From a virus, in the IMG/VR virus record IMGVR_UViG_3300006753_000061, positions 1 through 25,384 of that record: a DNA stretch of 25,384 nt. The stretch is one strand, 5' to 3'. This document shows, in pieces, positions 6,361 through 11,370 of this stretch (positions are counted from its first letter, which is position 1; the number at the start of each line of letters is the position of its first letter). Below the pieces are notes generated by a model. The model searched no databases. It was not told the origin of the DNA and was given only the letters and a program-made list of their open reading frames with translations. Position numbers and translations under genes: made by a program.

Positions 6361-6372
6361 AGTCACGTGACT
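6361..6372. promoter_or_regulatory. 12-base perfect palindrome AGTCACGTGACT after the portal gene
   Basis: AGTCACGTGACT begins 2 bases after the portal stop and is preceded by GGG. The same 12-mer occurs at 10681-10692, again preceded by GAGGG or AGGG and again in a gene junction. A third TCACGTGA-centred palindrome lies at 6768-6779. It could be a protein-binding operator or an RNA hairpin; no T-run follows. Confidence 0.5.
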
Positions 6373-7519: not shown

Positions 7520-8548
7520 ATGGCTACACTTAGCGTTCAAAATCCTACCCTTCTGGACTTGGCCAAGGCCACTGATCCAGACGGCTCTATCGCGGCGGTG
7601 GTTGAAATCCTGAACGAGACTAATGAAGTTTTGGATGATATGTCGTGGGTTGAAGGCAATCTCCCCACGGGCCATCGTACCACGGTGAGGAGCGGTATCC
7701 CCGCCCCCACGTGGCGCAAGCTGTACGGCGGCGTGCAGCCTAACAAGTCAACCAACGTGCAAGTGACCGATAACACTGGTATGCTGGAAGCCTACGCCGA
7801 AGTCGATAAGGCGCTGGCTGACTTGAACGGCAACACGGCGGCGTTCCGTCTGCAAGAAAATCGTCCTCACATTGAGGGCATGAACCAAGAAATCGTTGAC
7901 ACGCTTTTCTACGGCAATGAAGACACAGAACCCGAAGCCTTCACCGGCCTCGCTCCGCGCTTCACGAACCTTACTGCCGACGAGAACTCGGATAACGTCA
8001 TTGATGGCGCCGGTTCCGGCTCCGACAATGCCAGCATCTGGCTGATCGTCTGGGGTCCGAATACCTGCCATGGTATCATTCCCAAAGGTTCGATGGCTGG
8101 CATTCAGGTGCATGACAAGGGTCAGGTTACTCTTGAAGATGCTTCGGATGGCAGCAACACTGGCCGCATGGAAGCGTATCGGACGCACTATCGCTGGGAT
8201 GCGGGCCTCTCGGTTCGCGATTGGCGTTACGTTGTCCGTATTGCCAACATCGATAAGTCGGCTCTTAGCAGGGTGTACACTTCCGGCACGATTTCTGGCA
8301 GTGCCATCCTCCCCGACCTGATGTTCCAGGCGTTGCGGTTGGTTCCCAACTTGAGTGCTGGTCGTCCCGCTTTCTACATGAGCCGGGACATTGCCACTTG
8401 GGTTGCCCGTCAGAGTGCGGCTATGGGTAATGCTAGCGCGGTCACTATTGACACGATTGCTGGCTCTCAGCGCATGACTGAGCGTTTCAACGGCATTCCG
8501 ATAAGGCGTTGCGATAGCCTGTCTGCCGACGAAGCGGCTCTGACATAA
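7520..8548 (+). CDS. major capsid protein (epsilon15 gp7 / Bbp17-like), 342 aa
   Basis: This is the main shell protein, expected to have the HK97 fold. The sequence matches the group I know from epsilon15 gp7 and BPP-1 Bbp17. It has TLLDLAKATDPDG near the start, NEVLDDMSWVEGN with LPTGHRTTVRSGIP (likely N-arm and E-loop), LYGGVQPNKST, ENRPHIEGMNQE and TLFYGN. The hallmark WGPNTCHGIIPKGS begins at residue 178, followed by RTHYRWDAGLSVRDWRYVVR. The C-terminus has YMSRDIATWV and FNGIPIRRCDSL, typical of the A-domain end. Length is normal. It lies between scaffold and cement-protein genes, with ribosome site GAGAAAGG possibly in a hairpin. Confidence 0.92.
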   Translation: MATLSVQNPTLLDLAKATDPDGSIAAVVEILNETNEVLDDMSWVEGNLPTGHRTTVRSGIPAPTWRKLYGGVQPNKSTNVQVTDNTGMLEAYAEVDKALADLNGNTAAFRLQENRPHIEGMNQEIVDTLFYGNEDTEPEAFTGLAPRFTNLTADENSDNVIDGAGSGSDNASIWLIVWGPNTCHGIIPKGSMAGIQVHDKGQVTLEDASDGSNTGRMEAYRTHYRWDAGLSVRDWRYVVRIANIDKSALSRVYTSGTISGSAILPDLMFQALRLVPNLSAGRPAFYMSRDIATWVARQSAAMGNASAVTIDTIAGSQRMTERFNGIPIRRCDSLSADEAALT

Positions 8549-8573: not shown

Positions 8574-9047
8574 ATGTGGTTAGATGAACGTCTTGAATTT
8601 GCCGACGCGACTGCGCTGGATACCTCCGGTACTGATACCGATTTGATCGGTGACGTTATCGATCTTGGTGCTACTGGTCGCGATATCGGGCAAGGCCAGC
8701 CTGTCTATTTCGTCGTTCAGATTACGACTGCTGTTACTTCTGGCGGTTCTGCTACGGTGCAGTTCTCCGTCGCTAGTGATGGTGTGGCGGCGATTGCGAC
8801 AAACGGCAATCAGACTATTCACTTCCTCTCGGATGCCATCGCGGTGGCCACGCTTACGGCTGGTCTGACGATGGTATTCCCGCTGCCTAGCAACGACACT
8901 GTGCTGGGAGAGGATAATGTTGGGTACGAAAGGTATCTCGGTTTCCAGACTGTCACCGGCACTGCTGCCTTGACGGCTGGCGCTGTGAACGCCTTCCTGA
9001 CCCTCGACAACTATGGTTGGCAGTCATACCCTGACGCCACCAACTAA
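8574..9047 (+). CDS. Bbp16-like capsid cement (decoration) protein, 157 aa
   Basis: Cement proteins bind the outside of the shell after expansion and stabilise it. The sequence fits the Bbp16 family: an N-terminal WLDERLEFADATAL, then DLIGDVIDLGATGRDIGQGQPVYFV, then threonine/valine-rich beta strands (VTSGGSATVQFSVASD) and a C-terminal GYERYLGFQTVTGTA with FLTLDN. The composition is almost all beta strand, without charged helices, as expected for a jelly-roll-like decoration protein. It follows the capsid gene by 25 bases, with GGAAAGGA as the ribosome site, the same order as in BPP-1-like phages. Confidence 0.82.
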   Translation: MWLDERLEFADATALDTSGTDTDLIGDVIDLGATGRDIGQGQPVYFVVQITTAVTSGGSATVQFSVASDGVAAIATNGNQTIHFLSDAIAVATLTAGLTMVFPLPSNDTVLGEDNVGYERYLGFQTVTGTAALTAGAVNAFLTLDNYGWQSYPDATN

Positions 9048-9097: not shown

Positions 9098-9472
9098 ATG
9101 ATCGTGGAGTTTAAGAATACTTTTCATGCGCCGGGGTTCGGACGGAAGAGGTTTGAGAAAGGCATCGTGCGTGACGTACCGGAAGGCTTAAGGGATGCGC
9201 TTCCATCGTCGGCGGAAATTTTACCGGATGATTACCCGGAAGATAACGAAATCGCCGCCAGAGAAGAAGCTGAACTTAGGGCTGCGGACTTAATGCGAGC
9301 GCAAGCCGATACAAGCGATGCCGCTCTCGTTCAATCCGGCCACGCTGGCTGGGCTGACGAAAGCGATCCTGAACCTGAAGAGGATGATCCCCCCGTATGG
9401 GAGTTTGACGGCAAGGTTTATAAGACTGAACCCGCCATGAAAGCTGCCATCACTAGAAAGAAAGGAAGGTAA
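9098..9472 (+). CDS. small acidic structural-region protein, 124 aa
   Basis: The function is unknown. The N-terminal 45 residues (MIVEFKNTFHAPGFGRKRFE, then VPEGLRDALPSSAEIL) form a compact beta/alpha unit resembling short proteins often found beside capsid genes of podoviruses. A strongly acidic, alanine-rich linker follows (about residues 46-98), then a separate small C-terminal unit, VWEFDGKVYKTEPAMKAAI, ending in a basic RKKGR. The two-domain layout joined by an acidic linker suggests an adaptor or minor head protein, which is inference. It starts at ATG 9098. Its TAA overlaps the next potential ATG (TAATG). Confidence 0.65.
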   Translation: MIVEFKNTFHAPGFGRKRFEKGIVRDVPEGLRDALPSSAEILPDDYPEDNEIAAREEAELRAADLMRAQADTSDAALVQSGHAGWADESDPEPEEDDPPVWEFDGKVYKTEPAMKAAITRKKGR

Positions 9473-9474
9473 TG

Positions 9475-10656
9475 ATGAAGATCGTTACAACTCTTACCGC
9501 TTTGGCCTTAGCGTTTGGTGTCGCCTTCGGTGCGTCTGATGTTGAGGCGCGGCAGTTTGCTTTCAAAGTCGGCGCTGCTACCGTCGATGATGTCACTACG
9601 ACTGCTTGCACTACCGCGATCAACGGCAAAGTCTCTGGCTTTGGTAATGGCGTGGACATGGATCAGGTCTGGGCTTTGGAGAAAGAAGTTGGTTCTCCTG
9701 GGTCTGGTTCCTGGCAAGCTGTGCCTGGGTATACGGATGTGTTTCCTACGGCTAATGGTGCGGCGGCTGTCGGCGGCGTGACGCAGATCACACGCTATAC
9801 CTCGCCGGAAGTTGCTTGCTTCCGTCTGCATATGACTACTGACGGCGGCGGCACTGGCCAAATCCAGCTTGTTACGGACGGCGATAGCCCTTCGGCTATT
9901 CCCTCGCGTGAGACGCATAGGGAATGGTTCGATGACTTCGGACGTAGCGTGCTGGCGATTGCGGCTCTGGGTTCATACCCTGGCGACTACATCTGCTTTG
10001 TTGGTGACGGCTCTGGCTCTTCGGTTGTCGGCATTGGCGAGGTTTCCCCGGAAGGTATCTTGACCATTACGGGCGGTGATGATGGCGATGCTGAAGACAC
10101 TTCGGAATGCACGCTTGGCTCGGCTGATTACGCTGGCCTCGTGAGCGATGGCTTGACCATCTTCGAAGTTCGTTCTTCGGTTGAAGACATCACGGCTGGC
10201 GATTGGTTCGTCGGCTTGACTGAAGATGTTTCGGCTAACAATTCGGAAGACCCGGAGTTCGACATCAATACTAATGTTGTCACTGACAATGCTACGGTTT
10301 CTAGCAGCATCCAATTCGGTTTCTCTTCGGATGCGGTGGCTCCAACGGTGTTGCACGCTGTATCGACTAACGCTACCGCGCTTGGTAACGCTGCCGATGA
10401 GTATACCCTCGGGAATGCTCCGGTTGCGGCTACTTACCAGCGGCTGCGGATCGAAATCGATGCTACGGGCGATGCTTATTGGTACGTCGATGGCGTACTG
10501 ATGGGTGCGGAGCCTTTGGCGGTTGCTACTACCGCTGATATGTTCCCATACATCGTCTCAACTTCGGCTGACGATTGCACGTCCACGTGCGGCGTCACTA
10601 AGTTGGACATCGACTACTTGATCTGGGTCACTCCTCGGCCCACGACAACTAGCTAA
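9475..10656 (+). CDS. secreted-type lectin-like (concanavalin/LamG-like) protein with Sec signal peptide, 393 aa
   Basis: The exact function is unknown. The N-terminus is a textbook signal peptide: MKIV, a hydrophobic core TLTALALAFGVAFGA (residues 6-20), and a likely signal peptidase I site after VEA at residue 25. The mature part is beta-rich and Gly/Thr/Asp-rich, with six cysteines, an even number compatible with disulfides in an oxidising compartment. Near the C-terminus (from about 323) RLRIEIDATGDAYWYVDGV resembles the strand-turn-strand core of concanavalin/LamG-type beta sandwiches. It lies between head genes and tail tubular protein A. Two ATGs exist (9472, 9475); I choose the second for Shine-Dalgarno spacing to AAGGAAGG. 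Candidates are a head-decoration or fibre protein, or a protein exported during infection. Confidence 0.7.
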   Translation: MKIVTTLTALALAFGVAFGASDVEARQFAFKVGAATVDDVTTTACTTAINGKVSGFGNGVDMDQVWALEKEVGSPGSGSWQAVPGYTDVFPTANGAAAVGGVTQITRYTSPEVACFRLHMTTDGGGTGQIQLVTDGDSPSAIPSRETHREWFDDFGRSVLAIAALGSYPGDYICFVGDGSGSSVVGIGEVSPEGILTITGGDDGDAEDTSECTLGSADYAGLVSDGLTIFEVRSSVEDITAGDWFVGLTEDVSANNSEDPEFDINTNVVTDNATVSSSIQFGFSSDAVAPTVLHAVSTNATALGNAADEYTLGNAPVAATYQRLRIEIDATGDAYWYVDGVLMGAEPLAVATTADMFPYIVSTSADDCTSTCGVTKLDIDYLIWVTPRPTTTS

Positions 10657-10675: not shown

Positions 10676-10697
10676 GAGGGAGTCACGTGACTCCCTC
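10676..10697. promoter_or_regulatory. 22-base perfect palindrome before tail tubular protein A
   Basis: The 12-mer AGTCACGTGACT (10681-10692) is flanked by GAGGG on the left and CCCTC on the right, making 22 bases of perfect dyad symmetry. In RNA it would fold as a 9-pair GC-rich stem with a 4-base loop. The downstream sequence is pyrimidine-rich (CTCTCCCTTCCTTC) but lacks a real U-run, so an intrinsic terminator is doubtful. It lies in the 69-base gap between the lectin-like gene and tail tubular protein A. Confidence 0.6.
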
Positions 10698-10725: not shown

Positions 10726-11370
10726 ATGGCCACGCTTAGCATCAGCGAAGTTAAGATTTCGAACATGGCGCTTAGTCACATAGGCGCAAAGTCTGCCATC
10801 GAAAGCATGACTGAGGATAGTACGGAAGCTAATGCGTGTGATCTCTGGTATACTTTCGCCCGCCGCATGACCCTCGCTTCCTATGATTGGAGTTTCGCCC
10901 GTAGGCGACTGACGCTGGCCGACCACGGTGATGATCCTCCGTCTGGCGTATGGTCGTACCGCTATCAATATCCTTCCGATTGCATCGTCATGCGGAAGCT
11001 GGAAAATCCTAGCGGATTAGCGGCGATTGCTTTCTATGATGGCAACAAGAACTACGAACCCGACGCTGTTCCTTTCGATATTGAGACGGACGATGACCAA
11101 GACACGAAGAGTATTCTTACTAATCTTGATGATGCCGTGGGGGTTTATACTTTTGATCTGACTACGGTAACGATGTTTTCTGAATATTTCGTGATGATGC
11201 TGTCCTATGCTATCGGCTCTTTGATAGCGTATACGGTTACGGGGCAGACCGACATGAAAGACAGAATGGAAGAGAATTTCCGCAACATGGCTGTCGCTGC
11301 TTCCGCTTCCGACGCCAACGAGCGGGTAGATGCGCCCCCAAGGGATGCCGACTATATAAGAGGGCGCTAA
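10726..11370 (+). CDS. tail tubular protein A (T7 gp11-like adaptor), 214 aa
   Basis: This adaptor ring joins the portal to the tail nozzle. The sequence fits the gp11 family: ISEVKISNMALSHIGAKSAI near the start, DLWYTFARRMTLASYDWSFARRR (about residues 39-62, written here as two adjoining parts of one helix), WSYRYQYPSDCIVMRKL, a beta-rich middle, then FSEYFVMMLSYAIGSLIAY and a C-terminal helix ending ADYIRGR. Length is close to T7 gp11 (196). It starts at ATG 10726 after AGGAGA. One base separates its stop from the start of tail tubular protein B, the usual pairing. Confidence 0.88.
   Translation: MATLSISEVKISNMALSHIGAKSAIESMTEDSTEANACDLWYTFARRMTLASYDWSFARRRLTLADHGDDPPSGVWSYRYQYPSDCIVMRKLENPSGLAAIAFYDGNKNYEPDAVPFDIETDDDQDTKSILTNLDDAVGVYTFDLTTVTMFSEYFVMMLSYAIGSLIAYTVTGQTDMKDRMEENFRNMAVAASASDANERVDAPPRDADYIRGR

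Follow-up and report, generated by a model that had tools for sequence, protein, structure and literature searches.

Signal-bearing relatives of fibre-like phage proteins, probably sent out of the host cytoplasm, in uncultured BPP-1-related podoviruses

The virion proteins of tailed phages are assembled in the cytoplasm, and the phage proteins that do leave it are usually accessory proteins unrelated to them. The locus described here raises the question of what a protein with an apparent Sec signal peptide does among capsid and tail genes, and whether it is exported or is a virion fibre whose N-terminus resembles a signal. The window, that is the whole stretch of DNA analysed, is an IMG/VR virus record of 25,384 bases, on which the positions of its features are given (Table 1). 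It contains genes for a terminase, a portal, a protease, a major capsid protein (MCP) of the GP7 type and a cement protein of the Bbp16 type, followed by a small ORF, the focal gene and tail genes. The source phage is a podovirus of the BPP-1/epsilon15 type, and the window shares the MCP/cement pair and the gene order described for these phages (PMC3863775).

Table 1. Features of the focal gene and of its surroundings in the window
Feature	Position	Strand	Remarks
Major capsid protein (MCP)	7520..8548	+	Pfam GP7, phrog_212
Cement protein	8574..9047	+	Pfam Bbp16, phrog_427
Small conserved ORF	9098..9472	+	No assigned function; stop overlaps the focal-gene start
Shine-Dalgarno-like AGGAAGG	9463..9469	+	5 nt upstream of ATG 9475; from sequence
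Focal gene	9472..10656	+	Signal peptide, beta-sandwich domain and concanavalin/GH16-like domain (predicted)
Sec signal peptide (predicted)	9475..9549	+	Predicted cut between VEA and RQF, after residue 25; model helix 2-18
N-terminal beta-sandwich ("dock") domain of the mature protein	9550..9888	+	Homologous to the start of leaderless relatives; Cys45 and Cys115
C-terminal concanavalin A/GH16-like jelly-roll	9913..10635	+	Residues ~147-387; Cys174, 212, 368, 372
Perfect 22-base palindrome GAGGGAGTCACGTGACTCCCTC	10676..10697		Between focal gene and tail adaptor
Tail protein/adaptor	10726..11370	+	phrog_394, Bbp14 position

The focal ORF is a real gene. It can be read from the ATG at 9472 (394 aa) or from the ATG at 9475 (393 aa), ends with a stop codon at 10654-10656, and overlaps the stop of the preceding small ORF in the sequence TAATG. 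A sequence-only reading of the window had placed the gene between the cement and the tail-adaptor genes; this is borne out by the flanks, with the one small ORF intervening. An internal start giving a signal-less product was considered and rejected, because in the window the stretch that runs from the cut site to where conservation of the dock begins contains no ATG, GTG or TTG. A promoter scan of the focal gene returned one promoter-like site, where shuffled sequence would give 2.6.

To collect relatives, 80 loci were fetched by means of the capsid protein and subjected to an iterated profile (HMM) search, and the family was extended by further scans. Members are present in nearly half of the 80 loci, between the cement and the tail-adaptor genes; all of them come from uncultured phages, mostly as fragments. 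Close relatives of the focal protein were present in viral contigs, and a further contig scan with the alignment of the signal-bearing members yielded no new contigs. No relative of the focal protein was found in 50,697 phage records, no family match in plasmids, no prophage copy in two scans of bacterial genomes, and no cultured family member. Likewise, tblastn against named phages retrieved nothing for the window protein, L035 and L114, and for L003 one weak match (E=0.4) in an unrelated phage.

The family occurs in two forms, with 18 distinct signal-bearing and 26 distinct leaderless members. In each of the former the cut is predicted where a shared domain begins (GFGY, EFGY, RQFGY, EIAGG and so on), and the latter begin directly at this dock domain, often with MASFTGVGD or MATTSGSF. 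Homology of the dock between the window protein and the leaderless relatives was recovered by the iterated HMM search; identity between the main signal-bearing group and the leaderless proteins is about 27%, and 20% between the two copies in L114. The signal-bearing members form one clade, both in the tree of the lectin/LamG domain (support 100/100) and in that of the dock domain (90/89). Copies of both forms stand in tandem in L128 (same contig as L114; 8001-9191 and 9258-10298) and in L123 (2404-3567 and 3624-4877). Two leaderless copies in tandem were also observed in L056 (7817-9496 and 10092-11177).

Signals were called with a heuristic rule set made for this analysis, not with SignalP. 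By these rules a signal was present in 18 of the 44 distinct family members and in none of the 338 MCP, cement, small-ORF, adaptor and tail proteins of the same loci, while antisense ORFs scored in 45 of 1730 cases; the predicted signal of the focal family is more than chance. The N-terminus of the focal protein, MKIVTTLTALALAFGVAFGASDVEA followed after the cut by RQFAF, has one lysine, then an extended hydrophobic run free of charges, and V-E-A just ahead of the cut; the clear Sec signal with a VEA site claimed from the sequence alone was found again here. All 18 signal-bearing members have K or R, a hydrophobic core, small residues at -3 and -1, and one fixed cut place. At the same time the median identity of the signal region across 13 signal-bearing proteins was 25% (12-42), against 62% for the adjacent dock domain and 52% for the lectin domain. 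No family member has a Cys at the cut site (+1), as a lipobox would require. Since the property was kept though the sequence was not, with the same end point in all members and with paired cysteines, the evidence supports a genuine Sec-type signal in the focal protein, not a mimic, and its actual export and cleavage are, on these predictions, highly probable.

The cysteines point in the same direction. The six cysteines already counted in the focal protein were located at residues 45, 115, 174, 212, 368 and 372 (393-residue numbering). The number of cysteines was even (2, 4 or 6) in 16/16 complete mature signal-bearing proteins, compared with 7/23 leaderless ones. A safer figure, because the 16/16 counts related proteins separately, is that of seven cysteine pairs gained or lost as pairs, namely, in the mature numbering of each protein concerned, 20/90 (in most members), 343/347, 149/187, 301/316, 188/338, 240/245 and 251/254. 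The mature focal protein would thus probably carry disulfides, up to three in number. Two signal-bearing proteins, L031 and L047 (L120 and L119 in the tree), lack the N-terminal cysteine pair and are placed between the groups, with 38.7% identity to the main signal-bearing group and 36% to the leaderless one; their intermediate state fits an order in which the signal may have been gained first and the cysteines later.

The structure of the focal protein was predicted by AlphaFold2 from a 25-row alignment (pTM 0.81, mean pLDDT 74.8), giving the N-terminal helix, the beta-sandwich domain and a second beta domain; a leaderless member modelled likewise was also all-beta, with a lower pTM of 0.58. 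In comparison with PDB the second domain matched GH16 enzymes and lectins, with Foldseek E-values down to 1e-7 and VIA Z scores of 16-17.6 over 180-220 residues, the Foldseek and VIA matches being taken up by this C-terminal domain. The LamG/concanavalin-like C-terminus suggested from the sequence alone is thus matched by a GH16/lectin jelly-roll. The same domain resembles many phage structural proteins in BFVD, where the matches, mainly to the C-terminal domain, are uncharacterised, structural and minor tail proteins of phages, including SO2946-like/concanavalin A-like virion proteins with the same kind of jelly-roll. A Pfam search to E=1 gave no family match for the window protein, L003 or L047, and a PHROGs search none for the window protein.

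Several leaderless relatives have the anatomy of fibres. L056 (7817-9496) matches the tail-fibre PHROG 24210 at 1e-11, and L108 has matches annotated as tail fibre or tail spike over about residues 136-630, that is its C-terminal 500 residues; other leaderless members have C-terminal domains that are shorter and different, or a lectin domain. Most leaderless proteins also have a linker, D..GN....Q.G...P, after the first domain, which is missing from the signal-bearing ones. From this anatomy, the leaderless members would be adhesins carried in virions, and in view of such kin the focal protein has the look of a virion-fibre paralogue that is exported.

The focal gene itself appears, on comparison of genomes, to be accessory and no required part of the capsid. 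It is absent from the collinear relatives L018, L022, L024-L026 and L029, among which L018, L022 and L024-L026 have an MCP 84-90% identical and a gene order otherwise identical; BPP-1, BcepC6B, HU1 and AF, unlike the window, have just a small ORF at the focal position. As a separate observation, the small ORF that precedes the focal gene in the window follows the family gene in L043, L066, L079, L080, L101 and L128, and this switch of side marks the interval between cement and adaptor as a spot of gene exchange. In L069 (9659-12124) and L070, the post-cement interval is occupied by another gene set without family matches.

A recurrent palindrome was also noted in this region. The sequence TCACGTGA, often lengthened to GGTATCACGTGATACC, lies in the window at 6363, 6770 and 10683. 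In 1.13 Mb of fetched loci, which overlap, it has 143 copies (82 distinct contexts) against 17 expected with equal base use, and other palindromic octamers tried had 1-31 copies. Many copies are intergenic or near gene ends, as is the 22-base palindrome 3' of the focal gene, and the element may serve as an operator, form a terminator-like hairpin or be some other kind of phage site.

Taken as a whole, our proposal is that the focal protein is a Sec-exported paralogue of a virion adhesin, disulfide-bonded and glycan-binding, that acts as a mask after lysis, and we hold this complete chain to be somewhat more probable than its negation. The gene would be translated late together with the capsid genes, as its operon position suggests. 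After Sec export the signal would be cut behind residue 25, and the mature protein would fold in the oxidising periplasm, where the disulfides could form. Having no lipobox, no beta-barrel and no obvious way through the outer membrane, it should remain periplasmic in a Gram-negative host until the cell lyses, which weakens the idea of masking before lysis. The concanavalin/GH16-like domain would then bind a glycan rather than cut it, the glycan being most likely one of the host envelope. Lysis would free the periplasmic pool together with the progeny, and the freed protein may cover glycan receptors on the dying cell, its debris and its neighbours, thereby sparing progeny from loss and shutting out rivals. 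Receptor or debris masking, the job that we favour for the protein, is a tentative assignment, possible rather than probable. Among the signal-bearing members the dock is more conserved than the lectin domain, which suggests a fixed binding partner, and masking needs none.

The main rival of masking is that the protein coats virions: exported in order to fold and form disulfides, it would bind released virions through its dock after lysis, as a head or tail adhesin. The gene position is shared with the leaderless fibre-like relatives and the first domain is homologous to theirs, and a conserved first domain followed by a variable, independently exchanged lectin domain is the usual plan of a fibre. 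Indeed, dock identity tracks MCP identity somewhat (Spearman 0.31-0.55; 0.55 without L031/L047). In the signal-bearing loci the identity of the lectin domain was seen hardly to track that of the capsid (Spearman 0.13-0.24; 0.24 without L031/L047), and the two behaviours together suggest an exchange of the tip domain. However, the low identities between the dock and the leaderless docks given above, also within L114, make a shared capsid site doubtful, and the linker typical of the leaderless proteins is missing; decoration of virions after lysis is therefore an unlikely reading, although it is the strongest competitor. A wider wording, in which one copy of a virion adhesin is exported by Sec, would gain periplasmic disulfides and is fitted onto finished virions, or soaks up receptors, at the burst, we regard as doubtful as well; if true, a tailed-phage surface protein would be matured outside the cytoplasm. 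A role confined to the periplasm, such as attaching to glycans of nascent LPS, capsule or peptidoglycan, or helping lysis along, seems less likely still: a type I signal with neither lipobox nor barrel would make a soluble periplasmic fate the simplest, and the late operon position agrees with it, but Pfam and PHROGs showed no link to known families for lysis or exclusion.

The reading as an ordinary fibre, assembled in the cytoplasm and with an uncut hydrophobic anchor that resembles a signal, had been offered from the sequence alone as a head fibre mimicking export. The fibre idea has a real basis, because the gene sits in a structural module and the family includes leaderless proteins, of which some end like tail fibres. 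Its second half, the mimic, did not stand up as well: a peptide anchoring the protein in the capsid is expected to be a conserved part, and here the N-terminus is the least conserved one, yet the charge, the core and the small residues are fixed in all 18 members. Moreover, the cysteines are paired and the leaderless relatives manage without any such stretch, which leaves this explanation very unlikely. Equally improbable is an exported enzyme of the GH16 type that trims the host envelope or an extracellular glycan. The solved folds closest to the C-terminal domain are GH16 glucanases, agarases and carrageenases, and the window protein has E-F-D-I-N near where the catalytic strand would lie, by our placement. 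Against this, the catalytic ExDxE/ExDxxE is absent at the corresponding place in all aligned rows covering it, the sole match, EGDQE in L079/L080 (residue 192), is found elsewhere in the protein, and the family does not conserve the acidic residues at that place; the enzyme was set aside for lack of the motif. Glycan binding thus becomes likelier than cutting, and the domain is, judging from the aligned sequences, likely a lectin. The exported lectin-like protein of the sequence-only reading accordingly keeps its two parts, a Sec-type signal and a lectin/concanavalin-like C-terminus, on the strength of relatives and fold matches.

Accessory genes with a signal peptide inside a structural cluster have a counterpart in Lom of phage lambda and Lom-like proteins, Lom being an outer-membrane beta-barrel coded between the tail spike and tail fibre genes and expressed in the lysogen (PMC12309495). 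Unlike Lom, the focal protein is predicted to be soluble, two-domain, all-beta and concanavalin-like, with no barrel in the model; it is kin to leaderless fibre-like proteins, and its gene lies between the cement and the tail adaptor. A second counterpart is the exported receptor-blocking lipoproteins of the T5 Llp type. Like these, the focal protein would be exported and could, by blocking receptors, keep progeny from being lost to debris; unlike them, it has no lipobox and no known similarity, and is probably expressed late, not early. Animal viruses also make secreted versions of virion proteins, for example the secreted form of hepatitis E ORF2. The comparison holds only for the way of working, in which a non-virion version of a surface protein of the virion is exported: the viruses, folds and purpose are other ones, and the focal protein comes from a separate gene, not as an alternative product. 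Titles and abstracts of the open-access literature were searched for virion fibres with a signal, for LamG proteins of phages and for exported copies of a fibre, and among them we found no precedent for an exported copy of a tailed-phage fibre. Exported accessory genes within structural clusters are thus already known, and what differs here is the kinship with leaderless fibre-like proteins.

These comparisons suggest that in some uncultured BPP-1-related podoviruses a relative of a virion protein is probably exported from the host cytoplasm. One family spans both sides, with leaderless fibre-like members and a signal-bearing clade whose cysteines are paired; two of the phages encode both forms next to each other. 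If export is confirmed, the combination of a signal and paired cysteines inside a structural module would provide a genomic signature by which more cases may be recognised, and the family would offer a system in which to ask why a phage exports the relative of an adhesin, be it for receptor interference, debris masking or late coating of virions.
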